Of a DNA stretch of 64,000 nt, positions 7,561-45,026 are shown in pieces (positions within the stretch are counted from its first letter, which is position 1; every line of letters starts with the position of its first letter). The position numbers were made by a program, and so were the translations under genes. The stretch is from assembly GCF_014518425.1 (NCBI RefSeq), contig NZ_JACVCU010000005.1, positions 372,678 through 436,677 of the forward strand, given 5' to 3'. The notes below the pieces were generated by a model. The model made no database searches. It was not told where the DNA came from and saw only the letters and a list, made by a program, of their open reading frames with translations. This DNA comes from Terrabacter sp. MAHUQ-38 (GTDB taxonomy: Bacteria > Actinomycetota > Actinomycetes > Actinomycetales > Dermatophilaceae).

Positions 7561-7644
7561 CTGGACGTTCCTTCACGGGCGACGACGATGTCTCGCCCGA
7601 GACTCGTGACGTCCCCTCCCCCGCGTCAACCCGTGACCGATGTC

Positions 7645-7673: not shown

Positions 7674-7679
7674 AACGGA

Positions 7680-7732: not shown

Positions 7733-7753
7733 TCGTCGGTCGTGCTCGGGAGC

Positions 7754-28269: not shown

Positions 28270-30033
28270 TCAAACAAAGATCGTGCCAGCTGGATCCAGG
28301 AAGTCTGTTGCGATGATTTGCGCGACGCCGTAGGGCTGGGTGTCGAAGCCCTTGTAGTTGTGCCAGGCCTTGATCCGACCGTCGGTCTGGATGAGGGCGA
28401 TCTCGGACCGTCCATTGCCGTCAAGGTCCATGAACCGCACCCTTGCCGGATCGGTGAACCCCGTCGCAATGATGACGGCGTAGCCGAACGGCGAATCGGC
28501 GAAGCCGAGGTCGTTGTGCCAGGCCTTGATCTGCCCGTCAGTCTGGATGAGGACGATCTCGGACCGGCCGTCATCGTCCAGGTCGGTGAACACCGTCCGC
28601 GCAGGGTTGGTGAAGCCGGTCGCGATGATGAGCGAGCTCCCATAGGGCGAGGTGGCGAAGCCGAGGTCGTTGTGCCACGCCCGGACCTGGCCGTCTGCCT
28701 GGACCTGGATCAGCTCGGACTTGCCGTCGTCGTCGAGGTCGGCGAACCGTACCCTTGTCGGATCAGTGAACCCGGTCGCGATGATGAGCGAGCTCCCATA
28801 GGGCGAGGTGGCGAAGCCGAGGTCGTTGTGCCACGCCCGGATTTGGCCGTCTGCCTGGACCTGGATCAGCTCGGACTTCCCGTCGTCGTCGAGATCGGCG
28901 AACCGAACCCGTGTCGGGTCGCTGAAGTCAGTCCCGATGATCGCTGCGGATCCGAACGGCATGGCTTCGAAGCCCTTGTAGTTCTGCCAGGCCTTGATCT
29001 GACCATCGGTCTGTATCAGCGCGATCTCAGCGCGGCCATTGCCGTCAAGGGACGACTTCCGGCTACCGCCCTGCACCGGCAGCCCGTTCACCCAGCTGAG
29101 GTTGATCGAGAACATGTGCCTGCTTCCGCCCGCCGCAGCGGCGTGCAACACGACCTTGTCACCACCGCCCAGCCCGTCCTGGGACGTCACGACGTCAGCG
29201 CCACCGGGGCCGCACAGTCCGGTGTTGGCCTGAGTCATGAAGGCACTCGGGGCTGACGTCCAAGGGCCGGTGACCGCTGGCGCCGTTGCGTACGACGTGT
29301 AGTAGCCACAGCTGGCAAAGGATCCGCCGGAGTAGAACAGCACCATTTTGTCATCACGCTCGACCAGGTCCGGCGCCTCGATGATCTGGCCGGCTGGAAC
29401 AGTGAGCATCGCAGTCGTCGCACCGACCAGGGTGGTGCCGTTGTTGCTGACCCGGCTGACCCAGAGCGTAGACGGCTGGTTGACGGCATTGCCGTCGCTC
29501 TTCCAGGTGAGATACCGCGTTCCGTCCCGGGCGACGAAGGTGTTTGCGTCGATCGCGCCACCTTGGCTGAGCGGGCAGATGAGCGGTCCTGAACCGTGGG
29601 GTACGAACCCTCCCACCGGCGAATTGCTGAACGCCACGCCGATGCACTGACGACCAGAGGCTGCGTCCTGGGCCGTGTAGGTGAGCGTCAGACTGCCGTC
29701 GGGGTTGGGTTGAACGTCGGGAGCCCAAGTCCTGCCCGCGACGGCCCAGCTGCCGGGCCCGCCGGGCATCGCGTCACCGAGGACTTGCCAAGGTCCGTCG
29801 ATGGTGGGCGCGCTGGCCACCGGGAGATGCCTGAAGTCGTTGGTGGCGTAGGCGTACCAGGTCTGTCCGATGCGGACCACGTCAGGATCTGCAAACCCTT
29901 GAGCGATGAGCTCTCTCGGGGCGGAGGGGGTGGCGGCGAGGGCGATCGGGGCTGCCATAACCAGCGCCGCCTGAACGACGAGGCTGAGGGCGGCCAGCGT
30001 AGCGAGCCAGGGCGCGCAGAGCTCCTTGGTCAT
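28270..30033 (-). CDS. Secreted GH43-like glycosidase with five FG-GAP-type repeats
   Basis: 587 aa. A signal peptide (about 1-34, IALAATP) is followed by a five-bladed GH43-type domain: base Asp49 in GFADPDVV, pKa modulator Asp106 in TWAPDVQP, acid Glu219 in IIEAPDLV, and the family-like IDANTFV at 161-167. GH43 enzymes cut arabinose, xylose or galactose linkages. Residues 327-587 are five repeats of 52-53 aa, each with a calcium-type D-L-D-x-D/N-G-x-S/A-E loop, probably a small beta-propeller binding module. The ATG overlaps the stop of the upstream GH gene by 4 bp, so the two are co-translated. Confidence 0.85.
   Translation of the reverse strand: MTKELCAPWLATLAALSLVVQAALVMAAPIALAATPSAPRELIAQGFADPDVVRIGQTWYAYATNDFRHLPVASAPTIDGPWQVLGDAMPGGPGSWAVAGRTWAPDVQPNPDGSLTLTYTAQDAASGRQCIGVAFSNSPVGGFVPHGSGPLICPLSQGGAIDANTFVARDGTRYLTWKSDGNAVNQPSTLWVSRVSNNGTTLVGATTAMLTVPAGQIIEAPDLVERDDKMVLFYSGGSFASCGYYTSYATAPAVTGPWTSAPSAFMTQANTGLCGPGGADVVTSQDGLGGGDKVVLHAAAAGGSRHMFSINLSWVNGLPVQGGSRKSSLDGNGRAEIALIQTDGQIKAWQNYKGFEAMPFGSAAIIGTDFSDPTRVRFADLDDDGKSELIQVQADGQIRAWHNDLGFATSPYGSSLIIATGFTDPTRVRFADLDDDGKSELIQVQADGQVRAWHNDLGFATSPYGSSLIIATGFTNPARTVFTDLDDDGRSEIVLIQTDGQIKAWHNDLGFADSPFGYAVIIATGFTDPARVRFMDLDGNGRSEIALIQTDGRIKAWHNYKGFDTQPYGVAQIIATDFLDPAGTIFV
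28588..28899 (-). repeat. Two nearly identical 156-bp tandem units
   Basis: Units 2 (28744-28899, residues 379-430) and 3 (28588-28743, residues 431-482) of the FG-GAP-type array are almost identical at DNA level, for example sharing GCGAGCTCCCATAGGGCGAG, while units 1, 4 and 5 have diverged. This indicates a recent in-frame duplication and a site prone to copy-number change. Confidence 0.75.
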
Positions 30034-33000
30034 TGGTCACCTGCTGTGCTGTGTCCAGTGACCGTCGTTCCCTTGACGTGGTGTGCCGCGACCTGGGCGT
30101 GCGACAGCGCTCGGTCGTAGAGCGCGACGTCCGCCATCCAGCCGACGAACCGGTTGCCGGCGTCGTCGCCTCGAGCACCGATCTTGAGTGATCCCTCTCC
30201 CCGACCTGGCGCGCGCGTCATCGGCGTTGACTTGAGCAGTTCCCCGTCCAGGTAGACGGTCAGCGTGGAGCCGTCGAAGACCGAGACCACATGGTGCCAA
30301 CCCCATTGGAGCACGGGTTTCTGCGCTGGCCCGGTGGTGGACAGGGCATCCGAGAGGTTCATCGCCTCGGGCCGGTTTCTGGCAGCCAACCTGAGGAGGT
30401 ACCCGTTGTTGGCTGGTCGGTCGTACTTCTCCAGCACGCCTTGGTCACCTGACTCCCGGGGGTATACCCAGGCCTCGAGAGTGTACGGACCCGTCAGGTT
30501 CAGCGTCGGTGAGCTGGGGACATCGATGTAGCCGCCTGCGAGGCTCATCGACCGACTGGGCTCGCCGGCGAGCGGTCCCGCCTGACCGGTCACGACCGTC
30601 CCACGGACCTGGCCGTCGTTGCCGTGTCCCGACTCATCCGAGGCGGTGCCCGCCGTGTCCTCGAGGGGCCAGTAGCCGACGGCTCCGTCTGCACGTACGA
30701 GGTCCGCATAGTTGCCGGTGGCCGGGCGCGACACAGTCACTGAGGTCGTGTGAGAGGTCGGCGTTCCGCCCTCCGGGTGCACCGTCACCGTGAGTGGATA
30801 GCGGCCGGCGGCAGCGTCGGGTGGGGCCGTGACGCTGGTGCTCACTCGCTGCCAGGCCAGACCGTTGCCAGCATTGCGTGCGAAAGGAACCTGCCCGGCG
30901 GCCACCGTCCACCCGGACGGGGCCTCCACAGTGACTCGCCCCTTGACGACGCTGGTGCCCGAGGTCTCGACGAGCATCCCCAGCTGGGCGGAGGCGCCGG
31001 GCGCGATCATCTCCGCGAGGTCCGTAGACACGACTCGGGCTTGGGACGTGGACCGAGCGGCGACCGGGGTCACCACAGCCCGGACGCTGGCCCTTCCGGA
31101 GGTCGGCACCGTCACGGCATCGCCGACGAGGAGGACCGGCGCTCCGTTGACGGTCGCCGAGGTGATGCGGTAGCCGGCAGGCACGCGAAGATGCACCGAG
31201 ATCCGTTGCAGCTTGGGCCGGTTCGGCTGAGCTGCTGGCGGCACAATCGTCGCCTCGACGGTGCCCTTGGCCACGCGGGAGGTGATTGCGTACGTCATCG
31301 GCCCGAAGGAGGTCGGGAGGTCGGTGACGCCAACGGTCTGTCCCTCGGCCAGCCAGAGCTTCGGCGTGGCAGCGGCGAGCTGGAGTCCGCTCGGCATGCC
31401 TTGGGCATCCTGCGTCTCGTTGATGAGCATGCCGGAGAGCGCCTTGAGGTACGTCGCGTTGTTCGCCGACAGCGGCGCCCGGAACTGGGATCGGTAGTAC
31501 TCCATCGGGCAGGGAGCGACAGTCACCCCTTCGCCGCCGATGAAGGTGTTCGGCGTGAAGCCCTGCGAGAGCATGCCGTAGAAGGTCAGTCCGATCCGGT
31601 CTGCATCACCGACCTGGCTCAGGTACTTGAGGTACGACCAGCCGTACTGCTGGTCGATGCCGCTCGACCGGTAGCCGTCCGCCGCCGGCCAGGCCCCACC
31701 GGGGCGGGTCTGACACGCCTCTACTGGTTCGCCGCTGAGGTTGAACCGCGTGAGCCCGAGGAACAGCCCGCCGTGGGTGTTGAGATACGTGCGCAGACCC
31801 TTGCCGATACGGCTGTCCGGGTCTATGAGTCCACTGCCCAACGCGTAGGGCATGATCAGGTTCCAGTAGCTCCCTTGCTGCGAATCGGTGATTCGACCCG
31901 ATGGGTCGAAGTCGCTGGGATCACCGAGCGCGATCGGGACGAAGACCGAGCCGTCCGGCAGCTCGGTGCTGCTGCGTTCGATCGCCTTCAAGGTCGCGAT
32001 CCGCAGCCCTTGGGCCTGCGCCGTGAAGGCTGCCGCGTCGGTGTCATGGTCCAGGAGGCGCAGCACCAGTCCCATGTCCCGCAGCCCGCGCCACACGTCG
32101 GCGTGGTGGTGTATGCCGTGTGCCTTGGTGCTGTTGTCCGAGTAGAGGCGCGTCTTGGCGAGCAGCCCGTCGGGGTCCTGGCTGCGTTGCGCGGAGATGT
32201 CGGTCAGCCACGTGCGGAAGTTCGGGAGGTTGTCCGAGATCAGACTGGCATCACCCGTCTGGAGGTAGTACCGCGCAGCGGTCTGGAGCTTGATCCCGCG
32301 TTCCCAGGTGGTGAAGCCGTCGTTGTACTGACCTCGAACGAGGAACTGGTCGATGGCCTGCCGCGTGCGAGTGGTGAACCCGAAGTCACCGAGTGACCCC
32401 ACGGTTGCGACGGCCTCGGGGATCCACGCGAATCGCTCGTCGTCGGGGAGCTCGTACCCGTTGCCGACGGTGAGGTTGTAGCCCATGACAAGGTTGGTCA
32501 ACAGCATGGAGCGCATCGCGTCGGCCGCGTACCTCTCCGGAATCCGAACGGTGCTGCCGGCCGCGAGCTGGCTCTTCCAGTACGTGACCATGTCGGCACG
32601 CCGGGCGTCGTAGGCGTCGCGGTCCATCACGACCGCACCGAGCGCTTGGGGCTGGTTCATCAGCAGCAGGTAGACATCGGCCGGGCCTTGGCTCAGGTCG
32701 AGGTCGAACGTGAGGTCGGGCGCGCTCCACCTGGCCGACCCGCTATGGGCAAGCGACAGCTTGTCGCCAACCACGAGGCTGTTCGCGGCCTGCGCCGCGG
32801 CGGCGACATACATCCCGTTGAGGTTGACGCGCAGCCTGGTGGAGGACTCGGCCGAGCTTCCCGGTCGCACCTTGAAGTGGATCATGGTCATCAGCCGCGC
32901 GGAGGACGAGAGTCTCGTGACGTAGGACTCGCGCTCGTAGACGCGGCCCTGCCGGTCGGTGTAGCGATTCTGGAGGATGGGCAGGTAACCGTCAGCCAGC

Positions 33001-33539: not shown

Positions 33540-33634
33540 GGTCGCCCTCACTCCTCGTCGAATGCGCGGTCGCGACCGACTGGCGATGCCCTGCAGCCGC
33601 GGTACAGGCCTGCAACGGTCGCGTGATATCGAAA

Positions 33635-33663
33635 ATGCTAATACTGGTCTATACCAATTACAA
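33635..33663 (-). promoter_or_regulatory. Promoter with DasR-type operator, glycosidase pair
   Basis: Minus strand: -35 TTGTAA (33663-33658), 17-bp spacer, -10 TAGCAT (33640-33635). The spacer holds TGGTATAGACCA (33645-33656), one mismatch from the palindrome TGGTCTAGACCA bound by DasR/NagR-type GntR regulators. A bound repressor would block polymerase. It lies about 100 bp upstream of the large glycosidase gene. Confidence 0.7.
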
Positions 33664-33804
33664 GGGTGCGGAACGATTCCCGCCGCGATCGGACTGTCGT
33701 GGGTGTCCTTTGGCCCGAAGGACGTTCGTCGAGCGTCGCGGCGGAGCCGGCGACAGTTACCTCAGCGGTGCGATTCCCACCTCAGGACTGAAGGCCGGCC
33801 AGCG

Positions 33805-34878
33805 CTAGGTGGTGCGCGTGACCTTGGAGAGACCTCGCGGCTCGTCGGGGTCGAGTCCCCGAGCGATGCTGAGGTCCAGCGCCAGCCTCTGCAGAGGCAC
33901 GATCTGGAGGATGGGTGACAGCTCCTCTGGCACGTCTGTCCCGACCGGGATGACCGCCGGATGCCCGTGACGTGCAGCGAAGTCGCGGTCGCCCACGACG
34001 AGCGTGTCGGCGCCTGTCTGACGGATGTGTTCGACGACCGGGCCCAGCAGCTCGCCGCCCACACCTGGCGGTACGACGATGATGGCCGACTGGTCGACAT
34101 CGAGCATCGCCAAGGGGCCGTGCATGAGATCTGCGCCGGAGAAGGCCTGTGCGGCAAGGTAGCTCGTCTCCATCATCTTGAGCGCCCCTTCCCGAGCCGT
34201 TGGGTAGGAGAAGCCTCGCCCGACGGTGACGAGCCGCTGGATGAGGCGGTGTCCGTCGGCCCACGGCGGTAGGTCCTGGCCGAGCAGATGCGTCAGTTCC
34301 TCTGGCAGCCCACGCGCGCTCGCGCCGTCCCGCCCGCGCCAGGCATCGACGAGCAGCCAGAGCGCCTGCAGCTCGGCCGTATACGTCTTCGTCGCCGCCA
34401 CGGACCGTTCCACGCCCGCACGGATATCGACGTGCCACTGCGCGGTCGCTGCCAAGGCAGAGACAGGAGCGTTCGTGACCGCTACCGTCATGGCCCCGTG
34501 ACGGCCAGCCACCCGTGTGGACTCGATGAGGTCGGGTGACCCGCCTGACTGGCTGATCGCCAGCCAGAGGCATCGTTCCAGGCGCGGCCTGGCTGCGTAA
34601 CCGGTGTACGTGGACAGCGATGCCAATCCGCACGGGATCCCGAGCTGGGTCTCGATGAGGTACTTGACGTACAGCGCCGCGTGGTCGCTCGTCCCCCTGG
34701 CTGCGATCAGGGCGAAGCGGGGGTCAGTGTCTCGCACTGCGGCTGCGACGGCCCGTATGTTGCCAAGCTCGGTCTCGAACTGCCGTGTGAGTACGTGCGG
34801 TTGCTCGTGGATCTCGGCGCGCATGTGCCGGCCCCGGTCGGTGCGAGAGGACGCGGGGCCCAGTGGCGTGCTCGTCAC
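33805..34878 (-). CDS. SIS-domain aminosugar-phosphate isomerase/deaminase (NagB-II/GlmS-isomerase type)
   Basis: 357 aa with two SIS domains like the isomerase half of GlmS, but no glutaminase domain. Motifs: ARGTSDHAALY, LAISQSGGSPDLIEST, REGALKMMETSYLAAQ and the C-terminal GLDPDEPRGLSKVTRT. Stand-alone proteins of this kind (NagB-II, AgaS) deaminate glucosamine-6-phosphate or related sugars to ketose phosphates. It is the last gene of the sugar operon; its GTG start overlaps the preceding SIS gene by 4 bp. An internal ATG 18 codons in (MRAEIHEQP) aligns well with family N-termini and is an alternative start. Confidence 0.85.
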   Translation of the reverse strand: MTSTPLGPASSRTDRGRHMRAEIHEQPHVLTRQFETELGNIRAVAAAVRDTDPRFALIAARGTSDHAALYVKYLIETQLGIPCGLASLSTYTGYAARPRLERCLWLAISQSGGSPDLIESTRVAGRHGAMTVAVTNAPVSALAATAQWHVDIRAGVERSVAATKTYTAELQALWLLVDAWRGRDGASARGLPEELTHLLGQDLPPWADGHRLIQRLVTVGRGFSYPTAREGALKMMETSYLAAQAFSGADLMHGPLAMLDVDQSAIIVVPPGVGGELLGPVVEHIRQTGADTLVVGDRDFAARHGHPAVIPVGTDVPEELSPILQIVPLQRLALDLSIARGLDPDEPRGLSKVTRTT

Positions 34879-35624
34879 GGCTCGATGGGGCGGATCCGCG
34901 CCCCGTACATCGAGTAGAGGCCGGCGTTGTGCGCGTCGCCGTCCGGCGTGTTGGCAGAGACGTACACGGGCACCCGCGCACCGCTCTCCTCGAGGGCCCG
35001 GCAGGTGGCTTCGGTCAACAGCTGCGCGATGAGCACACCGGTCAGGGACGACACGGCACCGATCCGCTCGCCGCCGGCGAGCTGAATCGTGGCGTCGCCT
35101 CGTGGTGCCATGTTGTCGATGACGACGTCCGCGAGATCGACCAGCCGCTGACCCGAACGGGTGCGGGACGTCACCCCGCGCGTGTGGTTGAGCGACGTGA
35201 TCGCGACGAGGCGGTGTCCCCTCTCCGTGACAAGTGACGCCATTTCCACGATGGCGGCGTTGATCCCGGAGTTGGACACGATGACGAACAGGTCGCCGGC
35301 CTCGGGTCGGGCCAGCTCGTAGATGCGCGCAGCCAACCCCGGCTCTCGCTCGTACGTCGGGTCCAGGATGTCCGCCGGGTCGGCGCCGCCGAACATCACT
35401 AGGTCCTTGACGCTGAGCATCCCCACCGACGCGAGTCCACCGGCCCGCGCCGCGAGCTCGAGCGCGACTATCCGGGAGTGTCCTGTCCCGTATGCCTGCA
35501 CGACCCCGCCGTCGCGGATCGCCGTCGCCATGAGCTCCCCGGCCCGGCGCACCTCCCCCAGCTGACTGTCGAGGACGTCGGCTACCACCGACCGTGCGAT
35601 GTTCGCATATTCCAGCTCAGACAA
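34875..35624 (-). CDS. SIS-domain protein (UPF0309-like)
   Basis: 249 aa single SIS domain: AYGTGHSRIVALELAARAGG, LFVIVSNSGINAAIVEMA and NMAPRGDATIQL. The family is related to phosphoheptose isomerase and MurNAc-6-phosphate etherase folds and is uncharacterised; it commonly neighbours sugar importers and BadF-type kinases. It presumably acts on a phosphorylated aminosugar between the kinase and the deaminase. It overlaps the ceramidase-like gene by 8 bp. Confidence 0.8.
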   Translation of the reverse strand: MSELEYANIARSVVADVLDSQLGEVRRAGELMATAIRDGGVVQAYGTGHSRIVALELAARAGGLASVGMLSVKDLVMFGGADPADILDPTYEREPGLAARIYELARPEAGDLFVIVSNSGINAAIVEMASLVTERGHRLVAITSLNHTRGVTSRTRSGQRLVDLADVVIDNMAPRGDATIQLAGGERIGAVSSLTGVLIAQLLTEATCRALEESGARVPVYVSANTPDGDAHNAGLYSMYGARIRPIEP

Positions 35625-36918
35625 CTGACTGCTCCTCTTCCTTGGAGTCGTGCGCCCGACGTGCGAGATCGACGGCGACGTCGACCACGTGCTCCCCGCT
35701 GCCCGGCGCCACGGGGCTCACCAGCACCTCGTAGCCGACGTTCGCGGCGCGGGTGGGCAGATAGCCGAGGTAGCCGTTCGTGTAGCCGAGGACCACCGTC
35801 CGCTCGGGCACGGGCGAGCGGCGACGGATGTCGTTGCCGAGGGACAGGAACAGCTCGGCGGGCACGGCCACGAGCGTCACTCCGGGCAGCTGCGCCACCT
35901 CGACGTCGATCGAGAGCTCGTCCATGTACTCGGAGGCTTGCCGCCGGCTGGCGATCTCGACCCCCTGACGCAGGACATGGAGCAGCCGCGCGTCGCGTGA
36001 ATCCCTACCCCGGGTCCCAGCAGGACTGAGCTCGTTGCTCAGTGCAGACGCGGGCTTCGGCTTGAGGGTGACGGTCTGGGCCTTGGCAACTGTCGCCGCG
36101 GATGCGTCGCCGGCCTCGGCGGGATGTTTCCGCGCGAGGATCTCGTCGAGCGCCGGCGTGACGGCATCCGCGAGCACCTCACCCAAACGCTCGATCTCGG
36201 GCGCGACACGGCCACGACGACTGAACCGCGTGCTGATGTCTCCCGCTGCGCCTGTCGCCGATACCACCCAGGGGCCGCCCGTCTGACGCTCCTGAAGGCG
36301 TCGGAGCAGGGCTCGGCGAATGCCGCCGCAGAGGTCGGCACTCACGCAGGAGTTCTCCGCCCCGAGAACCGTGGGGTGCACCGGCGTCACCACGAGCAGG
36401 CCCTCCACGTGTCCTTTCCTCGACGCCACCACGAGATCGACTGGAACCCCCTGTGGCTCAGTCGCGCTCGCGGTGCGGTCACCCGCAAGACCGGTGACGT
36501 CGACGCGAACCACGTCAACGCGGCTGGCCACCTGCTCCTGGATCGCGAGGCGGACCGCCGCAACGGACGCCTCCACGAGCCTTCCCAGCACTGTGGGCGG
36601 CGTGACGGCGCCGCCGGGGTGGCAGCCGCTCTCCGGGCCCGCGTGTGTATGCGTGGCGGCGACCCATGCGCCGGTGATCGCCAATCGGGCACGGAGTGCT
36701 TCGCGGACCGCGAGGACGGCGTCACGGTTGACGCACACGAGGTCCGCGACGACGAGCGCCCAACGGCTGTCTCGAGAGTCGCCGGCGTCAACGACGATCG
36801 CGTGCACCTCCAACGGGTCTTGGATACCGCCGACGCCGCTGTCTCGGTCGGCGTAGCCGCCCATCGCTTCCCCTGTGGCGACCGGAAGGGGCGCCGTGCC
36901 GTGACCCAGCCGGATCAT
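35617..36918 (-). CDS. Neutral/alkaline ceramidase-like zinc amidase, cytoplasmic
   Basis: 433 aa, shorter than secreted neutral ceramidases (about 650 aa) and without signal peptide or C-terminal Ig domain. The zinc-site pattern of the family is kept: ATHTHAGPESG (two His), VTPVHPTVLG (third His), AGDIS, Glu in VPAELFLSLG and Tyr in GYTNGYLGYLP. Neutral ceramidases hydrolyse an N-acyl amide. Embedded in an aminosugar import/catabolism operon that lacks a recognisable nagA, it may remove an acyl (acetyl) group from a sugar; this is inference. The ATG overlaps the kinase stop by 4 bp. Confidence 0.8.
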   Translation of the reverse strand: MIRLGHGTAPLPVATGEAMGGYADRDSGVGGIQDPLEVHAIVVDAGDSRDSRWALVVADLVCVNRDAVLAVREALRARLAITGAWVAATHTHAGPESGCHPGGAVTPPTVLGRLVEASVAAVRLAIQEQVASRVDVVRVDVTGLAGDRTASATEPQGVPVDLVVASRKGHVEGLLVVTPVHPTVLGAENSCVSADLCGGIRRALLRRLQERQTGGPWVVSATGAAGDISTRFSRRGRVAPEIERLGEVLADAVTPALDEILARKHPAEAGDASAATVAKAQTVTLKPKPASALSNELSPAGTRGRDSRDARLLHVLRQGVEIASRRQASEYMDELSIDVEVAQLPGVTLVAVPAELFLSLGNDIRRRSPVPERTVVLGYTNGYLGYLPTRAANVGYEVLVSPVAPGSGEHVVDVAVDLARRAHDSKEEEQSVV

Positions 36919-37871
36919 GCGGCCGTTCCCTGTCGGGCGATGAGCGGCGCGTACATGCGGTGCTCGCCGTGCCAGCCACGGCGGGCCAGCAGCACCGAAC
37001 CGGACAGGGGATCACCCGACGGTTCGGCGAACTGCAGTCCCGCGGCCTCGACGGCAGCCTGGAAGGGGCGCCTGACCGCGCCTGCACCCGTGAGGAGGCG
37101 GCCGGCATATGACACGCGTGGAGCGTTCGACTCGGCGCCGACGGCGCGTGCTGCCGCCAGTGCGCTGGCGGCGAGTGCCGCGCCGGCCAGGCCGCAGATG
37201 GCGTTCGCGACCTCGTCGCCGGCGTCGGCGTGGCGTGCGACGACGCGAGCGAGCCCGGAGATGAAGGCGACTCGGTCATGGCGTCGATGGAGGCGTTGGA
37301 GCGCTGCAAGGTCTGCGCCTCCAAGAGCCGAGAAGATCTCGTCGCTCATGGTGGTGGGCGCTTCCGTGTGGTCCGCAGCCGCGGCCGCGGCGCGCAGCGC
37401 GCTTCGTCCGATGTCGTAGGCGCTCCCACGGTCGCCCACGATCGGGCCCCAGCCATCGCAGCGGGCCCACCTCCCGTCGGGGGCCACCGCCACCGCGACC
37501 GTCCCGGTGCCGGCCGAGACGACGGTGCCCGGGCCGGCGAGGGCGCCGGCGTGCGCGGTCACCGCGTCGTCGACGAGCACGACCTCGGCCGAGAACATCG
37601 AGGACAGCGCAGCGCCGAGAGCCCTTCTCTCCGCGGACGCACCAGGGAGACCGGTGAGCCCTGCGCACACTCGAGTGGGGACGTCGTCGCGCAGGGCGCC
37701 GGCCGCGGCACGGACGGCCGCCCTGATGGTGTCGAGGTCAGAGTCGGCCTCGGGAGCGTAAGAGAAGCCAGGACCCTCGCCCTGCCAAAGGGTGTTGCCG
37801 GCAGCGTCTGTTGCGCAGACTCGGGTGGCGGACTTTCCCCCGTCGATCCCGATGAACCGCTGCGCGCTCAT
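36915..37871 (-). CDS. BadF/BcrA-family sugar kinase (GlcNAc kinase-like)
   Basis: 318 aa ASKHA-fold ATPase: phosphate 1 motif GIDGGKSATR (8-17), VVLVDDAVTAHAGAL, adenosine motif VVSAGTGTVAVAV and GWGPIVGDRGSAYDIG. The last motif is typical of N-acetylglucosamine kinases of the BadF branch. It should phosphorylate the sugar delivered by the adjacent ABC importer at C6. It overlaps both neighbours by 4 bp. Confidence 0.85.
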   Translation of the reverse strand: MSAQRFIGIDGGKSATRVCATDAAGNTLWQGEGPGFSYAPEADSDLDTIRAAVRAAAGALRDDVPTRVCAGLTGLPGASAERRALGAALSSMFSAEVVLVDDAVTAHAGALAGPGTVVSAGTGTVAVAVAPDGRWARCDGWGPIVGDRGSAYDIGRSALRAAAAAADHTEAPTTMSDEIFSALGGADLAALQRLHRRHDRVAFISGLARVVARHADAGDEVANAICGLAGAALAASALAAARAVGAESNAPRVSYAGRLLTGAGAVRRPFQAAVEAAGLQFAEPSGDPLSGSVLLARRGWHGEHRMYAPLIARQGTAA

Positions 37872-38737
37872 CGGCCGATCCCGGCCGTGAGGCCTGCCAC
37901 GATCTGCTTCGTCGCGAAGACGAACACGAGCACCAGGGGCGCGAGCGCCAGCACAAGCCCGGCGAAGAGCGCTCCGCGGTCCGCCGCGTACTCGCCGATG
38001 AATCGCGTGAGCCCTACCGGAATCGTGTACTTCTCGTCGGAGCGGATGAGCACCAGCGGGTAGAAGAAGTCATTCCAGATCGGCGCGAACTGGAACACCG
38101 TCACGGCGGCGACGGCGGGCCGCATCAGCGGCAGGACGACCGAGCGGAAGATGCGCCACTCGTTGGCACCGTCGATCAGGGCCGCCTCTTCCAGCTCAGG
38201 CGGAACTCCCCGAAGGAAGCCCATGAGGACGAAGACCGAGAAGGGGATGCCGCCCGCCGCATACAGGAGTACGAGGCCGAGACGGCTGTCGATGAGTCCG
38301 GCCGACTCGAACATGTAGAAGACGGGAAGCAGGCCGAGCTTGGCCGGGATCATGAGGCCGGCGATCACATAGGCGGCAAGCACCGCTCCCCCTCGGAAAC
38401 GCCACCGCGAGAGTCCGTAGGCGAGCATGCTCGCGAGGCCGACACAGAGCGCGACGGACGCCACGGACACCAGGGCCGAGTTGAGGAAGTAGGTGGACAA
38501 CGAAGCCGTCTGCCATGCGCGCGCGTAATTGGTCAGCCCTGCGCTGCCGGGGAGGCCGATCGGCTGGCCGAGCAGATCGCTGTTGCTCCGGAACGAGCCG
38601 ATCAGCACGAGCAGGATCGGGCCGAAGGCAACCACCGCGTAGGCGCACAGGAGCAGCTGGACGCCGACCGACCGGGCGGTCGATGGGCGCCGGACGGGTT
38701 GGATCCGGGCGGGTGGCACAGATGCTGCAGCGGTCAC
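37868..38737 (-). CDS. Sugar ABC transporter permease (MalG type)
   Basis: 289 aa with six predicted membrane helices and the EAA loop EEAALIDGANEWRIFRSVVL that docks the ATPase. CUT1-family importers take up oligosaccharides or aminosugars. No ATPase gene is in the operon; such importers in actinobacteria usually share a housekeeping MsiK-type ATPase. It overlaps the first permease and the kinase by 4 bp each. Confidence 0.92.
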   Translation of the reverse strand: MTAAASVPPARIQPVRRPSTARSVGVQLLLCAYAVVAFGPILLVLIGSFRSNSDLLGQPIGLPGSAGLTNYARAWQTASLSTYFLNSALVSVASVALCVGLASMLAYGLSRWRFRGGAVLAAYVIAGLMIPAKLGLLPVFYMFESAGLIDSRLGLVLLYAAGGIPFSVFVLMGFLRGVPPELEEAALIDGANEWRIFRSVVLPLMRPAVAAVTVFQFAPIWNDFFYPLVLIRSDEKYTIPVGLTRFIGEYAADRGALFAGLVLALAPLVLVFVFATKQIVAGLTAGIGR

Positions 38738-39672
38738 AGTTGCACCTCTCGGCGGCGCAGGAGGCGTTCGAGCAGAAGCGCCACGCCGAAGATCAGGACG
38801 AACATCAGCATGGCGACGGCTGAGGACTCACCGATGGCGTTTGAGCCGCCACGGAAGGCGGTTCGGTAGTAGAGGAGTCCGAGGACGTCCATCGACCCCC
38901 CGGGACCCCCGCTCGTGCCGCCCAGGGCGTAGACGAGGTCGAAGACGTTGAAGCAGCCGATGAAGGTGAGCACGGTGATCACCCCGACGGCGGGCATGAG
39001 CAAGGGGAAGCGGATCCTCCAGAACAGCGTCCAAGGGCGGGCCCCGTCGATCTGGGCGGCCTCCTCGAGGGACTGCGGGATGCCACCGAGTGCTGCGCCG
39101 AAGATGAGCAGGGGGCCGCCGATCCACTGCCAGGCGTTGACGAGGATAAGGACGGGCAGGGCCAGGTCGGGCTCACCGAGCCATGGCTGCGCCCAGGACT
39201 CGAGGCTCACTGCCTTGAGCGCGGCGTTGACCGGACCGAAGGTGGGGCTGAGCAGGAGCGACCAGAGGTAGCCCACGATGAGCGGGCTGATCAGGAACGG
39301 CATCGAGAAGAGGGTCTGGAAGAAGCGCTTGCCCCTGGGATTGCGGTGCAGGATCAGGGCCAGACCGAGACCGATGGTGTTCTGGATCGCCATCGTGCCG
39401 ACGAAGAAGAGGACGTTGTGCAGCAGGGCCGCGCCGAGCTCGGAGCTGATCGGGTACCGCGTCAGCACCTCGAGGTAGTTGCCGACTCCGACGAACGGGC
39501 CGCGCGTCGTTCCCTCCCAGGCGAAGAAACCGTAGACGAGTGCAGTGAGCAGCGGGTAGATGACCATCGCTGAGTAGAGCCCGGCGCCGGGGAGGCAGAA
39601 GGCCACGACCCATCGCCAGGCAACGCGGCGGCCCTGTGCTGGGCCGCCGCGTCCGCGGCGACGTCGACTCAC
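38734..39672 (-). CDS. Sugar ABC transporter permease (MalF type)
   Basis: 312 aa. A basic cytoplasmic N-terminus (VSRRRRGRGG) and six helices, with the EAA loop LEEAAQIDGARPWTLFWRIR. It pairs with the MalG-type permease to form the membrane channel for the upstream binding protein. The GTG start at 39672 overlaps the binding-protein stop by 4 bp (GTGA); the longer open frame upstream is a shadow. Confidence 0.92.
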   Translation of the reverse strand: MSRRRRGRGGPAQGRRVAWRWVVAFCLPGAGLYSAMVIYPLLTALVYGFFAWEGTTRGPFVGVGNYLEVLTRYPISSELGAALLHNVLFFVGTMAIQNTIGLGLALILHRNPRGKRFFQTLFSMPFLISPLIVGYLWSLLLSPTFGPVNAALKAVSLESWAQPWLGEPDLALPVLILVNAWQWIGGPLLIFGAALGGIPQSLEEAAQIDGARPWTLFWRIRFPLLMPAVGVITVLTFIGCFNVFDLVYALGGTSGGPGGSMDVLGLLYYRTAFRGGSNAIGESSAVAMLMFVLIFGVALLLERLLRRREVQL

Positions 39673-40958
39673 GACTTCGGCTTGAACCACTGGTCTACAC
39701 CGCGCTGGATCGAGGCCGCCGCCTGCGCCGGGGTGACCTTGCCCAGCACCGCGTTGGAGAGCTCCTTCGAGGCAAGATCCCAGGCGCCCGGGGTCCCGGC
39801 AGAGAAGTACGCGTAGGTCAGGTAGGGACTGGGGTTGGCGGCATAGTCCTTGACGGCCTGTGCCAACACCTCGCCCTTGGGCGTGACACCTGGCACCGGC
39901 GAGATCTGCTGGAGCTCGTCGGTGAAGGCCTGACCGAACTCGGCGCCGGCCATCCAACGCACCAGCTCGAGGGCTGCAGCCTGGTTCGACGTCTTGGACG
40001 ACACGCCGAAGGAGCCGTCGACGAAGCCGGGCACGAGCGTCTTCTGCGAGACCGCGTCCGGAGCGGGTGGCGCGTTGAAGACCCCGATGTTGAGCTGCGG
40101 GTTGGCGGTCTTGAAACCAGCCACTTCCCAGACGCCCCCGGGAAAGGTGGCGGCCTTGCCCGACGCGAACTGAGCCTTGGCGTCGTCGTACCCGACCCCA
40201 GTCGCCTGGGGCTCCCAGTACGGCTTCGTACTCAGCCAGGTGCCGATCGAGGCGACCCACGCCTCGTCGGTGAACTTGCCCTCGCCGCGCAGCATCCTGT
40301 CGCGCTGCTCGATGCCGCCGTAGCGCGTCGCCCCGAAGATCTCCTGTTGGATCGGCAGCATCCACGTGTCGGTCACCGTGGCGGCCACCGGCACGACGCC
40401 GGCCGCCTTGAGCTTGTCGAACCCGGCGGTCATCTCGGCCCACGTCGTGGGCACGGACAGACCGTGCTTCGCGTAGATGTCCTTGTTGTAGATCACGTGC
40501 ATGGTCTGGATGGCGAACGGCACGCCGTAGACCTTCTGGTCCCTGTCGCTGCGCGCTCCGTCGAGCACGTCGGACGAGAACTCCTTCAGCTCGGGCACGG
40601 TCGAGTCGAGCTCGACGAGGGAACCGGCAGCGGCGAGCGGCTGTAGGAGGCCGTAGGACCGCAGTTGGGCGACATCAGGGCCGTTCGTGCCCGTGAGGCC
40701 GGTCTTGAGGATCGTGTCGTACTCGGTGTTCTTGTACGGGACGTACTCGACCGTGACCCCGGGGTGCTTGTCCTCGTAGAGCTTGAAGATCTTCTTGTAT
40801 GCGGCGACGTCCTCCTGCCGCCAGCCCCAGACCTTCAGCGTCACGGGGCCGCCCTGGTCCTCCGTGCTGCCGCTGCCGCCCGCCGTGCCCGGCGAACACG
40901 CGGCCACAACACCAAGCAACACGGCCATCGCGGCGGCCTTCGTCCATCGAGTGCCCAC
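39669..40958 (-). CDS. Sugar ABC transporter substrate-binding lipoprotein
   Basis: 429 aa extracellular solute-binding protein family 1. The lipobox LGVVAAC puts the lipidated Cys at residue 21. The mature protein begins with a Gly/Ser linker, then VTLKVWGWRQEDVAAYKKIF, and has the hinge-region motif YGVPFAIQTMHVIYNKDIY. It delivers a sugar to the two permeases and is the first gene of the seven-gene operon. The DasR-type operator at 41021-41032 lies 63 bp upstream. Ligand unknown; GlcNAc or a GlcNAc-containing oligosaccharide is inferred from the regulator and enzymes. Confidence 0.92.
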   Translation of the reverse strand: MGTRWTKAAAMAVLLGVVAACSPGTAGGSGSTEDQGGPVTLKVWGWRQEDVAAYKKIFKLYEDKHPGVTVEYVPYKNTEYDTILKTGLTGTNGPDVAQLRSYGLLQPLAAAGSLVELDSTVPELKEFSSDVLDGARSDRDQKVYGVPFAIQTMHVIYNKDIYAKHGLSVPTTWAEMTAGFDKLKAAGVVPVAATVTDTWMLPIQQEIFGATRYGGIEQRDRMLRGEGKFTDEAWVASIGTWLSTKPYWEPQATGVGYDDAKAQFASGKAATFPGGVWEVAGFKTANPQLNIGVFNAPPAPDAVSQKTLVPGFVDGSFGVSSKTSNQAAALELVRWMAGAEFGQAFTDELQQISPVPGVTPKGEVLAQAVKDYAANPSPYLTYAYFSAGTPGAWDLASKELSNAVLGKVTPAQAAASIQRGVDQWFKPKS

Positions 40959-41011
40959 GGGGACCTCCCTCGCTCTGCGACCGGTCGATGTGACCTCGTC
41001 GATGGAAAGGA

Positions 41012-41040
41012 CCGTAATACTGGTCTAGACCGCCCGTCAA
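41012..41040 (-). promoter_or_regulatory. Promoter with DasR-type operator, importer operon
   Basis: Minus strand: -35 TTGACG (41040-41035), 17-bp spacer, then a weak -10 TTACGG (41017-41012) or TATTAC two bases earlier. The spacer contains the perfect palindrome GGTCTAGACC (41022-41031) within ACTGGTCTAGACCG. It stands between the divergent binding-protein and regulator genes and can control both. Confidence 0.75.
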
Positions 41041-41133
41041 TGGATACGATGCAATTGGCGACGGGTCGTGAAGCACATACCGATCGGCGGCCGGCGGGCT
41101 AAGTTGTGTCCACCCATCGACGAGGAGGGGCAA

Positions 41134-41913
41134 ATGCCCAGACATCGGCAAGAGGCGACCCTCGACTCACTGGTCACTCGGGTCCCCACGCACGGCCAGA
41201 CCAAGGGTGAGCACATCCTCGAGACACTGCAGTCGTTTGCCCAGGCGACACCTGCTGGCACCCTCCTCCCCTCGGAACGTGCCCTGGCCGACCACTTCCA
41301 TGTCTCCCGAATGACCGTCCGCGGAGCGGTCGACGAACTGGAGAGCAAGGGCTTCGCGAGACGCGTCCCTGGGCGCGGCACGTTCGTCAACCACCCCCAG
41401 CTAACTCATTCCGAGACGTTCCGGTCGTTCAGTGACGATATGCGTCTACGCGGCCTGGAGCCGGGATCCGTTGGCTACCGCGCGTCTACGCGCAGGGCAA
41501 CGCGTTCGATCGCGGCCTCGCTCGGGGTCGAGGTGGGTGCGGAGACCCTGCACATCGAACGCGTCCGCACGGCCGACGGCGAGCCCATGGCGCTCGAGCG
41601 GACGAACGTCTCACTCGAGCGCTTCCCCGGCCTGCGCTCCCAGATGAGCCCCGACCAGTCGCTCTACGACATCATCCAGCGCATCTACAACATCCGGCTG
41701 GAGAGCGCCCGGCAGCGAGTTTCCATCGTTCGACTCTCGGCCCCCGACGCAGTCAAGCTCGCTGTGGCAGAGGGAGAACCCGCCTTCCTGGTCGAGCGCA
41801 CGGCGCTCGACAACATGGGCCGCGTCGTCGAGTTCGGTCGATCGCTCTACCGGGGCGACCGCTACGCCATCGAGATGCATGTCGGCACGCCGGGTGCGCG
41901 GCCGCTCAGCTGA
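41134..41913 (+). CDS. GntR/HutC-family regulator (DasR-like)
   Basis: 259 aa. The N-terminal winged helix (about 26-90) reads LLPSERALADHFHVSRMTVR and RRVPGRGTFV; the C-terminal UTRA effector domain spans about 105-250 (ERFPGLRSQMSPDQSLYDII). HutC-type proteins such as DasR and NagR bind TGGTCTAGACCA-like sites and respond to glucosamine-6-phosphate or GlcNAc-6-phosphate. Three such sites sit in promoters around this gene. The ATG at 41134 has GAGGAGGGG five bases upstream; an upstream in-frame ATG adds only non-family residues. Confidence 0.88.
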   Translation: MPRHRQEATLDSLVTRVPTHGQTKGEHILETLQSFAQATPAGTLLPSERALADHFHVSRMTVRGAVDELESKGFARRVPGRGTFVNHPQLTHSETFRSFSDDMRLRGLEPGSVGYRASTRRATRSIAASLGVEVGAETLHIERVRTADGEPMALERTNVSLERFPGLRSQMSPDQSLYDIIQRIYNIRLESARQRVSIVRLSAPDAVKLAVAEGEPAFLVERTALDNMGRVVEFGRSLYRGDRYAIEMHVGTPGARPLS

Positions 41914-41964
41914 CCCACGACATCACGGCGCCCGCCCCCACCGCACCTGCCACATGGGTGACCA

Positions 41965-41993
41965 TTGACGCCTCTTCTGGTCTAGTCCAGTAT
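41965..41993 (+). promoter_or_regulatory. Promoter with DasR-type operator, GH84 gene
   Basis: Plus strand: -35 TTGACG (41965-41970), 17-bp spacer, -10-like CAGTAT (41988-41993). The operator CTGGTCTAGTCCAG (41977-41990) overlaps spacer and -10; it has one mismatch from a perfect palindrome. It lies about 80 bp upstream of the GH84 start. Confidence 0.7.
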
Positions 41994-42071
41994 CTCGACC
42001 ACGGCACGGGGTCGCATGGGCGATCCGCCTGCTTCGACAGAGGATCGGCCGTCAGCGAACGGAGCACGTCA

Positions 42072-45026
42072 ATGCGACCCGGAAGTCCCCATCGATCCCG
42101 ACGGGCGCGCGGAGCCCTGGCCGGAGGCTTGGCGCCCATCGCCCTGGCCGCCGTCACCATCGCCGGACCAGCGGCTGGCGCAGCCGAGAGCGCCGCGGCG
42201 GCCCCCGAGGTCAGCCCTCGACCGCAAAAGATGACCGTGACCGGTGCGGCCCTCGACCTCGCGGCCTCTGTCACCGTGGTCCGCGGCGTGGGCGCCGATC
42301 CGGCGGCCGTGACCGCGACCCTGGCGGCGCTGGCGGCCACGAACACCTCGGTCACGATCACCACCACCGATCCCGGCACGGGCGACACCGTCTACGTAGG
42401 CGGGCCGACCGAGACCGCACCGAGTCGTCCGGCGCTCGTCGCGCTCGGGGTGACCGCCGCGAACGGCCCAAGGCAGCAGGGCTACGTCCTGGCCAGCGGC
42501 ACGGACTCGCGCGGCCGCAAACGCGTCGTGCTCTCCGGCCACGACAAGGTGGGCACCTTCTACGCCGCCCAGACGCTGCGCCAGCTCCTGTCCCCCGACG
42601 CCACCGGGGCCTCCATTGACCGGGTGACGATCGAGGACTGGCCGGGCTTCGGGTTCCGCGGAGGCATGGACTCGGCCAACCCGCCGCCGCCTGGTGTCGC
42701 CCGCTGGACCACGGCCGACCGCCTCGAGCAGGTCGAGGTCCTGGCCCGCAACAAGATGAACCGCTTCTTCTACGGCCCGGCGATCGATCCGCGCACCGGC
42801 GGCTTGCCCGGGCAGGGCAGCTGGCGCACCGAGTACTCCACCCAGGAGCTCAACGACTTCGCCGCGATCGTCGCCAAGGCGAAGCGCCTGCACGTCGACT
42901 TCATCTACCGCATCTCGCCCGCTGCTCCCCTCGACCAGGCCTACGGGATCTGCCACTCGTCGGCCGATGACCGAGCCAAGCTGTTGGCCCGCCTCGACAC
43001 GCTGCGCTCGAAGGGCGTGCGCCACTTCGTCGTCGCCTGGGACGACATCGCCGCCGGCGAGCAGTTCACCTGCCCCGCAGACACTTCCGCCTACGGCACC
43101 CCCGGCCCGAACGGCACCAAGGTCGTCGACAAGGCGGCATGGGCTCGGGCGCAGGCAGCCGTCACGAACTACGTCCAGACCCAGTTCATCGCGAAGAACG
43201 CCCTCCCCCAGCTGTTCACTGTCCCGACGGAGTACGCGGGCGGCGCCGCTTCCTCGTACCGGGCCGTGTTCGACCAGTCGCTGAGCCCGGCCGTTGGGAT
43301 CTACTGGACCGGACCCGAGGTCATCTCGCCGACCATCGGCGTCGCCGACCTCACCGCGGCGTCACAGACCTTCCCGCGACACACCCTCGCGATCTGGGAC
43401 AACTACCCGGTCAACGACCAGGTCTGGGACCGCCTGCACCTGGGACCTGTCCAGGGGCGCGACGCCGGGCTCGGCCGCGCCCCGGGGATCCTCTTCAACG
43501 AGATGACCCAACAGGGCCCCTCACAGCTGCCGCTCCTGACCGCTGCAGACTACGCCTGGAACCCCGCGAACTACGACGCCGAGAAGGCGTGGGGCCGAGC
43601 CATCGCGACCCTGGGCGCGTCACGCGCGGCTGACCTGCGAACCTTCGCCGAGCTGAACCGATCGTCCGCGCTCACGCACGCCGACTCACTCGCCCTCGCC
43701 GAGGGCATCGACGCGTTCCGTCAGGCTTTGCGGACCAACACGAACGTGGCGGCAACCGCGAGCACCCTCAAGCAGAAGCTCACCTCCGTCCGCGCCGCCG
43801 GAACCAACCTCCAGACGATGCAGACCAGTTTCGCCAGCCAGGCCCGACCCTGGCTGCAGCAAACGGTGCGTCTCGCCGACGCCGGATCCATCGCCGTCGA
43901 CCTGCTGGTCGCCGAACGCAACGGCCAGACGATGACGGCCGAAACCCTACGAGCCCAGCTCATCGGGCAGCTCCCGTCAATCGCCGCCGAACCAGCCGCG
44001 GTGGGCGCGGGCGTCCTGCCGGCGCTCGTGTCCTTCGCGCTGCGCCGCGGGATCGACACCATCGACCTCAGCGGCGACGGCCGCGCCGACGTGCTGGCCG
44101 TCAACAGCGCAGGCGAGCTCAAGGCGTACGAGAACCAACGCACGACCTACAACTGGCCCGAGTTGGAGGCGACGGGCGTGAGGGTCGGCGAGGGGTGGAG
44201 CGCCTCTATGCTCCCCATCCCGGGAGATCTTGACGGGGACCGGCTCGCAGACCTGCTCGCCGTCACCCCATCCGGCCAGCTCATGCAGTATCGGAACACG
44301 GGAGCCTCCTTCGGAAGCATCGCCCCGAACGGGGTGCAGGTCGGCAGCGGCTGGCAAGGCGCCCTCGCGGTCCGATCGGCTGACCTCGACGCCGACGGGC
44401 GCGCCGACCTGCTCGGCGTCTTCCCCGACGGAAGCCTCCTGGCCTTCCGCAACACCGGCATGAGCGCGGCGGGAGCGGTCACGTGGGCGGCTCCGCTCAC
44501 CGTCGGCCAAGGATGGTCGGCAAACGAGCTGCCGTTCGTCGGTGACCTGAACGCCGACGGTCGTGCAGACCTCATGACGATCAAGCCGGACGGCACACTC
44601 TGGCACTTCCTCAACACGGGCAGTCTGTCCGGGACGACGTTCGCCGCCGGCCAGAAGGTCGGCCAGGGGTGGACGGGCTATCTCGACATGCATGTCGTCG
44701 ACCTCGACGGCGACGCCCGCGCCGACGTCTTGGGCGTCATGGGCAATGGAGAACTGCGCGCCTTCCGTAACGCCGGAGTCACGCCGGCAAGCACCGGTGC
44801 GTACGTGAGGTTCGGTGCGGGCGTGTCGGTGGGCGGCGGATGGAGCGCCTCGAACCTGCCCGTCCCGACCGACTTCAACGGCGACGGTCGCGCCGACTTG
44901 GTGTCGATCGCAAGCAGCGGTTACCTGGTCACGAATGTCAACGCTGGTCGCTTCGACAGCGGCTTGATGTTCCCCACCGGCGTGTGGCACGGCCCAGGTT
45001 GGACGGGGACGCAGTTCCTGCGCTGA
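42072..45026 (+). CDS. Secreted GH84 beta-N-acetylglucosaminidase with FG-GAP-type repeats
   Basis: 984 aa. Signal peptide (about 1-38), then a GH20b/GH84 N-terminal domain (about 45-150, VSPRPQKMTVTG). The GH84 barrel spans about 180-470, with FRGGMDS, KMNRFFYGPAIDP, DFIYRISPAAPL and the catalytic pair Asp324-Asp325 in VAWDDIAAG, plus IWDNYPVND. GH84 enzymes use substrate-assisted catalysis on beta-linked GlcNAc (hyaluronan, mucin O-glycans, O-GlcNAc). A helical region follows, and residues about 665-984 hold about six DxDxDG-type repeats of about 50 aa, probably a GlcNAc-binding or calcium-binding propeller. The ATG at 42072 has GGAG eight bases upstream. It supplies sugar for the adjacent importer operon. 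Confidence 0.88.
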   Translation: MRPGSPHRSRRARGALAGGLAPIALAAVTIAGPAAGAAESAAAAPEVSPRPQKMTVTGAALDLAASVTVVRGVGADPAAVTATLAALAATNTSVTITTTDPGTGDTVYVGGPTETAPSRPALVALGVTAANGPRQQGYVLASGTDSRGRKRVVLSGHDKVGTFYAAQTLRQLLSPDATGASIDRVTIEDWPGFGFRGGMDSANPPPPGVARWTTADRLEQVEVLARNKMNRFFYGPAIDPRTGGLPGQGSWRTEYSTQELNDFAAIVAKAKRLHVDFIYRISPAAPLDQAYGICHSSADDRAKLLARLDTLRSKGVRHFVVAWDDIAAGEQFTCPADTSAYGTPGPNGTKVVDKAAWARAQAAVTNYVQTQFIAKNALPQLFTVPTEYAGGAASSYRAVFDQSLSPAVGIYWTGPEVISPTIGVADLTAASQTFPRHTLAIWDNYPVNDQVWDRLHLGPVQGRDAGLGRAPGILFNEMTQQGPSQLPLLTAADYAWNPANYDAEKAWGRAIATLGASRAADLRTFAELNRSSALTHADSLALAEGIDAFRQALRTNTNVAATASTLKQKLTSVRAAGTNLQTMQTSFASQARPWLQQTVRLADAGSIAVDLLVAERNGQTMTAETLRAQLIGQLPSIAAEPAAVGAGVLPALVSFALRRGIDTIDLSGDGRADVLAVNSAGELKAYENQRTTYNWPELEATGVRVGEGWSASMLPIPGDLDGDRLADLLAVTPSGQLMQYRNTGASFGSIAPNGVQVGSGWQGALAVRSADLDADGRADLLGVFPDGSLLAFRNTGMSAAGAVTWAAPLTVGQGWSANELPFVGDLNADGRADLMTIKPDGTLWHFLNTGSLSGTTFAAGQKVGQGWTGYLDMHVVDLDGDARADVLGVMGNGELRAFRNAGVTPASTGAYVRFGAGVSVGGGWSASNLPVPTDFNGDGRADLVSIASSGYLVTNVNAGRFDSGLMFPTGVWHGPGWTGTQFLR

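Follow-up and report, generated by a model that had tools for sequence, protein, structure and literature searches.

A predicted local DasR/NagR-type regulon in Terrabacter and its conserved pairing of a ceramidase-like protein with a UPF0309 protein

Why should a gene cluster that looks suited to the use of N-acetylglucosamine (GlcNAc) hold both a relative of the ceramidases and a SIS-domain protein of the UPF0309 family? The question is raised by a stretch of 64,000 nucleotides, here called the window, from Terrabacter sp. MAHUQ-38 (contig NZ_JACVCU010000005.1, positions 372,678 to 436,677), in which an earlier note, made from the letters alone, had proposed a DasR-type regulon for a GlcNAc-containing glycan. 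That proposal is partly supported. The local regulon for a GlcNAc-type sugar is well supported, but the genes for the ceramidase-like protein (CER) and the UPF0309 protein, which had seemed an odd mixture, are the conserved core of an operon found in many actinomycetes. We consider it probable that the regulon serves a phospho-amino-sugar amidase working with a NagS- or MurQ-type SIS lyase, the order of steps and the sugar being unproven.

The regulon was predicted from three sites resembling TGGTCTAGACCA, which we take to be the perfect DasR-responsive element (dre) consensus. All three are present, each with one mismatch. The first, TGGTCTATACCA (33645..33656), lies upstream of the genes for a 1173-aa protein and a glycoside hydrolase of family 43 (GH43); the second, TGGTCTAGACCG (41021..41032), is in the promoter of the importer operon, about 60 bp before the gene for the ATP-binding cassette (ABC) sugar-binding protein (SBP) and about 100 bp before the regulator gene; the third, TGGTCTAGTCCA (41978..41989), lies upstream of a family 84 (GH84) gene. 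We ran the genome scan that had been suggested as a check (5.16 Mb), and sites with at most one mismatch number exactly three, all within the cluster. Chance alone could account for this bare count, since the reversed control pattern gives eight sites and a dinucleotide model expects about four for TGGTCTAGACCA. Their placement, on the other hand, is beyond chance, with 0.05 sites expected in the 64-kb window and three seen, all inside 8.4 kb and each preceding cluster genes. With up to two mismatches there are 136 sites genome-wide against 181 for the reversed pattern, and a two-mismatch site at 39691, within the SBP gene, was therefore set aside as chance.

The sites had also been placed in promoter spacers. 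The claimed -35 boxes (TTGTAA, TTGACG and TTGACG) were all found, but the -10 boxes are weak, the 17-nt fit at the GH84 site being CAGTAT. A strict sigma-70 scan recognized none of the three operator places as a promoter, and the promoter claim therefore rests on comparison with relatives. Among 18 homologous loci whose operon is of this type (L041-L058), 17 have the operator flanked by TTGAC and GTAT(T/A); it stands ahead of the importer genes, except in L044 and L055, where the kinase gene follows it. It has at most two mismatches in 15 of the 17 and three in L042 and L054; the sole exception among the 18 is L047, where the SBP and first permease are without a match. These loci are kin, and not independent trials of operator conservation. 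Because of the TTGAC...GTATTA footprints in relatives, the predicted spacer placement is convincing in the case of the importer promoter and likely in that of the site at 33645, whose TGGT..ACCAGTATTA context is shared with importer promoters. Sites with one or two mismatches also precede GH84 in four of the six relatives that have a GH84 match (L041, L043, L050 and L052, with none in L048 or L058), phosphoesterase genes in four loci (L046, L048, L049 and L057), and the regulator or first operon gene in L061, L064, L067 and L070. The best site in the searched stretch has three or four mismatches in L060 and L066.

The HutC/DasR-like gene that had been noticed in the middle of the cluster (41134..41913, plus strand, open frame from 41068) is confirmed as such: it encodes a GntR DNA-binding domain and a UTRA domain (3e-36), both over the Pfam gathering score, and DasR is its nearest solved relative. 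Its top chains in the Protein Data Bank (PDB) are those of DasR (9i0v and 4zs8, about 4e-40), followed by YvoA/NagR, and its own genome holds one other UTRA match. In its alignment with DasR, residues being matched by eye, it retains the arginines of (P/S)ER, SRxTVR and ERxR. Arg38 and Arg48 of NagR are described as reading G-5 and G-4 (PMC4333415), and in DasR two arginines on one strand are described as holding the effector phosphate (PMC4918961); on our reading of the alignment, the retained arginines would be these same residues. The placement of the sites, the DasR/NagR-like regulator and the operators conserved in relatives, together with the GH84 enzyme, a NagK-like kinase and a NagB-II-like SIS protein, make a local DasR/NagR-type regulon for a GlcNAc-type sugar well supported, with binding and effector predicted. 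The case for it goes as far as sequence can take it.

We next consider what the regulon controls. CER (35617..36918, minus strand, 433 aa) and the UPF0309 protein (34875..35624, minus strand) are encoded side by side. Using CER, we found 79 loci in other genomes and compared them with the window genes by tblastn. The order regulator, SBP, two permeases, kinase, CER, UPF0309 recurs in Jiangella, Phytoactinopolyspora, Nonomuraea, Micromonospora, Microbacterium and Actinophytocola. A Streptosporangium locus (L048) has the same order up to CER, and L044 and L055 have it without transporter matches. In a second form of the operon the regulator is on the same strand (L059-L062, L065, L066, L069, L071 and L110), and in six of these nine loci a gene of one family (f9), identified as NanE in the scanned member L060, lies between kinase and CER. 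NanE was found by profile in L060 and in L068, where it is the first gene of a short contig; relatives occur in five more loci, and L067 has it by eye. L063, L064 and L070 carry mannose-family phosphotransferase system (PTS) genes and NagA, with no kinase match found; profile scans identified IIB in L063 and IIC, IID and IIA in L064, and genes related to these are present in L064 and L070. A mannose-type PTS thus stands in for the ABC importer and kinase in these three loci, and the simplest substrate common to both arrangements is a sugar 6-phosphate. Beyond the actinomycetes the CER-UPF0309 pair recurs in further phyla, and it is present in Lachnospiraceae loci (L072-L074 and L076) in which neither a kinase nor an importer match was seen. 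The pair is thus a conserved linkage. An ordinary DasR-controlled GlcNAc regulon whose neighbors have no joint function would fit a regulator and genes that mostly belong to known families, but we think it very unlikely, given a seven-gene order held in several actinomycete families and a core pair held in other phyla. Our searches of the open-licence PMC literature brought up no paper recognizable as describing the pair.

What kind of protein, then, is CER? It matches the Pfam family Ceramidase_alk just over the cut-off (34.5 bits against 32.1) and the neutral ceramidase 2zws by profile at 3.7e-35 with the zinc ligands retained. Its predicted structure (pLDDT 91) matches 2zws in Foldseek at 1e-25, and neutral ceramidases are its sole matches below an E value of 0.001. 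The four residues that we take to be the zinc ligands of 2zws (H, H, E and Y) align with H90, H181, E355 and Y386 of CER, in columns that are invariant. Fold and ligands would suit an enzyme acting on lipids, either a genuine ceramidase or an N-acyl hydrolase, placed in the operon for glycolipid use; however, CER shows no signal peptide by eye, it is linked to a sugar kinase or PTS, and at positions 226-231 it reads GDISTR where ceramidases have GDVSPN, a motif described as important for ceramidase activity (PMC5874051). We regard this lipid role as most improbable.

The altered motif marks a clade. CERs linked to UPF0309 carry HPT and (T/N)GxxG(D/N)(I/V/M)STRxxxR, and UPF0309 lies nearby in 34 of the 37 loci, from several phyla, whose CER has GD(I/V)STR. 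The same is true of only two of the 42 loci in which this STR motif was not found, L115, with a CER of another kind, and L116, which is cut at a contig end. With three loci having STR alone and 40 having neither, the association has a Fisher p of 3e-16 when relatedness is ignored. In a tree of 67 rows, drawn from the 79 loci and the window after 13 weak or short matches had been dropped, the 37 STR rows including the window fall together on one side of a branch supported at 98/88. We infer that the arginines of GD(I/V)STRxxxR hold a phosphate, and CER probably acts on sugar phosphates and not on lipids.

Its partner belongs to the NagS family: the window protein matches SIS_2 at 1.4e-35, as well as 3cvj and the Streptomyces protein SCO4393/NagS (9eol). 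H53, R64, E94, D179 and N228, reported as essential or important in NagS (PMC12680351), are kept in the window protein and in every counted row; the L115 row, left out of the count as mis-cut, retains at least H, R and E. Ser91 is serine solely in nine rows of one family (f26), presumed streptomycete. The window protein has proline there and 32-36% identity to those nine rows, and thus lies outside the NagS orthologue group, which is given as sharing at least 58.7% identity, with NagS limited to Streptomycetaceae (PMC12680351). According to the same paper, NagS acts in Streptomyces before deacetylation by NagA, and of four NagS homologues assayed, one from Streptacidiphilus was active on GlcNAc 6-phosphate (GlcNAc-6P).

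UPF0309 is also found without CER. Of 296 genomes of the class, 67 have a match, and among 19 further UPF0309 stretches without CER, 13 carry a family of RpiR-type regulators and 12 a BadF-kinase family, as judged from scanned members; GH84 is nearby in L156, L157 and L159. In a sample of 150 Lachnospiraceae genomes, 12 have a UPF0309 match. Thirteen stretches were fetched, and in five of these UPF0309 has a different amidase next to it or within its run of genes, namely NagA in L211, L212 and L214 (by profile) and in L217 (by tblastn), and a creatininase-family protein in L209. In L209 this amidohydrolase overlaps the start of the UPF0309 gene, and in L217 two NagA-like matches and one NagB-like match come after that of UPF0309, all by tblastn. 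In three other stretches PTS, PRD-regulator, PfkB or GH20 genes adjoin UPF0309; the neighbors in the remainder are unrelated or unscanned.

These observations suggest how the system may work. A DasR/NagR-type repressor would bind the three dre-like operators, which would lie across the promoters of the importer operon, of the 1173-aa/GH43 genes and of GH84, and would let go when an amino-sugar 6-phosphate accumulates. To judge from their families, GH84 and its partners would free a GlcNAc-type sugar outside the cell, the ABC importer would take it in, and the BadF kinase would make the 6-phosphate. UPF0309 would then carry out a SIS-type elimination at C2-C3 of the sugar phosphate, removing water as NagS does or an ether group as MurQ does, and CER would cut an amide, whether the N-acyl one or another, in either the sugar phosphate or the elimination product, aided by the arginines of GD(I/V)STRxxxR; the local NagB-II-like SIS protein would deaminate glucosamine 6-phosphate (GlcN-6-P). 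The scheme of release, import, phosphorylation and deamination in the earlier note left out the roles of CER and UPF0309. NanE, NagA, GH84 and the DasR-type switch point to N-acetylated hexosamines as substrate; MurQ in L070 makes muramic compounds possible. By analogy with the published sequence of NagS and then NagA, CER could be the amidase that follows dehydration. A dehydrative pathway of this kind, in which a kinase or PTS makes an N-acetylhexosamine (HexNAc) 6-phosphate, UPF0309 eliminates water at C2-C3 and CER, with its STR phosphate site, removes the acyl group, is a tentative proposal, possible but less likely than not.

Several results weigh against the joint reading or against its dehydrative form. 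STR is found without UPF0309 in L048 and L075 (a partial gene), and also in L070, where the contig end is reached; conversely, L214, outside the 79-locus count, has a non-STR CER adjoining UPF0309 and NagA, contrary to a strict rule linking STR to UPF0309. In Lachnospiraceae, eight of the 13 stretches show no amidase beside UPF0309 among the genes examined. Of the homologues assayed, the three from outside Streptomycetaceae, with 26-36% identity to NagS, showed negligible dehydration of GlcNAc-6P or none, and failed to complement (PMC12680351). The window protein, without S91, falls in that range of identity. Because those homologues were nearly inactive, the substrate of UPF0309 may differ from GlcNAc-6P. 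Furthermore, the scanned neighbors included none that would take a dehydrated sugar any further. Entry of 3-deoxyglucosone-6-P into central metabolism through 2-keto-3-deoxy-6-phosphogluconate (KDPG) was considered and set aside, the annotated neighbors of representative loci holding no aldehyde dehydrogenase or KDPG aldolase.

NagA adds to this side of the balance, as it lies near CER in four loci (L063, L064, L068 and L070) and has a match of at least 200 bits in 25 of the 26 cluster genomes including our own, 22 of them over the cut-off; only G416, a Roseburia metagenome-assembled genome (MAG), has none, and in L064 and L070 the genome's match is the copy inside the cluster itself. We therefore rejected a general replacement of NagA by CER. 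The same counts bear on a simpler proposal, that CER is a second, non-homologous deacetylase of GlcNAc-6P or N-acetylmannosamine 6-phosphate (ManNAc-6-P) acting before the deaminase, with UPF0309 as a helping sugar-phosphate isomerase or anomerase. The order kinase, CER, UPF0309, NagB-II-like SIS in a window operon without nagA argues for such a role, as does NanE in related operons, which points to ManNAc-6-P/GlcNAc-6P. Against it stand the NagA matches in our own genome and in 24 of the 25 others, and the NagA genes beside or near CER in those four loci. On balance we find it rather doubtful.

MurQ supports a different alternative. A real MurQ gene (7286-8197) is present in L070, from a Nocardioides MAG; it scores 319 bits, passing the cut-off, and shares four bases with the start of CER. 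A mannose-type PTS and NagA lie upstream of this MurQ-CER run (7286-9417), and the contig stops 13 bases past CER. The overlap favors a link to N-acetylmuramic acid (MurNAc), in which UPF0309 would act much as MurQ does, as an etherase or lyase on a HexNAc 6-phosphate substituted at 3-O, and CER would cut an amide of that compound, which might, for example, be muramic or a muramyl peptide. Where CER is missing, UPF0309 is accompanied by RpiR-type regulators and BadF kinases, both of which occur in MurNAc operons; UPF0309 is, moreover, described as related to MurQ (PMC12680351). However, none of the other 78 loci matches the L070 MurQ at 1e-10, so that a MurQ-like match lies near CER in one of 79 loci only. 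A MurQ match of at least 260 bits is present in 22 of the 26 cluster genomes (our own and 21 of the 25 others), 14 of them over the cut-off, and replacement of MurQ by UPF0309 was rejected on this count, with the MurNAc link retained as a rival because the L070 copy adjoins CER. A muramic substrate would also leave NanE in related operons unexplained, and to our knowledge GH84 is not a muropeptide enzyme. L070 led us to raise this alternative from unlikely to possible, and to lower somewhat both the dehydrative pathway and the plain deacetylase.

The Terrabacter genome has other amino-sugar genes. Its NagA match (206 bits, short of the 225.65 cut-off, profile positions 16-374) and its MurQ match (290 bits against a cut-off of 302) are each on another contig, and a NagB-like gene, the second PF01182 match, adjoins a ROK kinase by eye on contig C1 (L123:7347-8162). 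The first PF01182 match (C14:165617) was rejected as NagB, because it sits among glycolysis and pentose-phosphate genes and reads by eye as a 6-phosphogluconolactonase. The stretches around nagA and nagB contain no site with fewer than two mismatches and one each with two (L120:6741 and L123:2136). Because nagA- and nagB-like genes sit elsewhere without such sites, the window cluster would be a second amino-sugar system of this genome. Beside nagB, a replicative-helicase-like gene (C1, L123:8498-11134) has an apparent intein-like insert, seen by eye in the translation.

Among the other genes of the cluster, Pfam confirmed the SBP, two permeases, BadF-type kinase, SIS, GH43 with FG-GAP and GH84 alongside the regulator, Ceramidase_alk-like and SIS_2 proteins. 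On the minus strand lie the SBP (39669..40958, SBP_bac_1, with a weak NgcE match of 62 bits against a cut-off of 400), permease 1 (38734..39600, start approximate) and permease 2 (37868..38737), both BPD_transp_1, and the NagK-like kinase (36915..37871, BcrAD_BadFG 6.5e-21; NagK_SO3507 1.6e-15, below the cut-off). The two-SIS protein (33805..34878, minus) resembles NagB-II and the GlmS isomerase and matches the NCBIfam model NagB_SO3506 at 1.5e-58 and 198.7 bits, under the cut-off of 430; it is a probable GlcN-6-P deaminase. The GH43 protein (28270..30033, minus) has a signal-peptide-like start, a Glyco_hydro_43 domain (3e-33, 115.8 bits, over the gathering score) and C-terminal FG-GAP repeats. 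The GH84 beta-N-acetylglucosaminidase (42072..45026, plus), also with a signal-peptide-like start, has a NAGidase catalytic domain (4e-70, 236.8 bits, over the gathering score), GH20b, NagJ_C and FG-GAP repeats, and contains WDD, which we take to be a GH84 motif.

The 1173-aa protein (30030..33551, minus) begins like a signal peptide and ends in NPCBM_assoc and laminin-G domains. The six-hairpin, (alpha/alpha)6, fold supposed for it gained no confirmation: its first 800 residues have no Pfam or PDB match, a single-sequence model of the protein reached pLDDT 35, too low to be of use, and a PDB profile search with four relatives gave a best E value of 0.75. The first 800 residues belong to a rare family, with matches in 3 of 295 other genomes of the class searched. 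FG-GAP C-terminal repeats are common to the GH43 and GH84 proteins, and the NPCBM_assoc and laminin-G ending is common to the 1173-aa protein and the GH84 of Micromonospora (L043). Accessory domains are, as far as these sequences tell, swapped among proteins of the regulon. In the 18 closest loci, L041-L058 (tblastn, 1e-5), the NagB-II-like SIS gene has no match, the 1173-aa protein matches by its C-terminal part alone, in L043, L052 and L058, and the GH43 protein gives short pieces in L058 alone. Because of these scarce matches, the three look like local additions.

Calcineurin-like and Exo_endo_phos phosphoesterases, several with signal-peptide-like starts, lie near the regulator in the scanned loci L042, L049 and L056. 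One phosphoesterase family (f6) is upstream of the regulator in L042, L045, L046, L048, L049, L051, L053, L056 and L057, and another (f17) in L049, L053, L054, L056 and L057. From these regulator-linked genes, the source could perhaps be a phosphodiester-linked amino-sugar polymer. Directly outside the window cluster is a bacterial serpin gene (25934-27376, Pfam Serpin 5e-94).

The 2025 NagS paper found no substrate for the UPF0309 proteins that it tested from beyond Streptomycetaceae, and the word 'ceramidase' is absent from its main text (PMC12680351). The linkage to CER gives many UPF0309 proteins a partner, an amino-sugar operon setting and a short list of candidate substrates. It also predicts that one clade of a family named for a lipid enzyme acts on sugar phosphates; if this is true, annotations will have to be corrected. 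Should the dehydrative pathway be real, many other bacteria would use as a dedicated means of catabolism what in Streptomyces is a toxic side route.

Finally, the system can be set beside those already known. Like the DasR regulon of Streptomyces coelicolor and the NagR/YvoA regulon of Bacillus subtilis, the window has a GntR/HutC repressor, dre-like operators and genes for import and metabolism of a GlcNAc-type sugar; unlike them, its three one-mismatch sites are all local and would control kinase, CER, UPF0309 and secreted hydrolases, while the genome's nagA and nagB lie outside. The BadF-like kinase and SIS-type deaminase-like protein resemble NagK and NagB-II, but both fall under the curated cut-offs, and CER and UPF0309 are extra. 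With NagS (SCO4393, a GlcNAc-6P dehydratase) the window UPF0309 shares H53, R64, E94, D179, N228 and an amidase partner, whereas S91 is changed and the setting is an amino-sugar operon with a ceramidase-fold partner, NagS lying by dmdR1. MurNAc use by MurQ involves a SIS lyase related to UPF0309, and MurQ overlaps CER in L070; in the window operon UPF0309 stands in place of MurQ, and the genome's MurQ match is on another contig. CER resembles neutral ceramidase (2zws, 4wgk) in the fold of its N-terminal part and in its four zinc ligands but differs in its 433-aa length, in showing no signal peptide, in having GDISTR for GDVSPN and in belonging to a sugar-phosphate operon.

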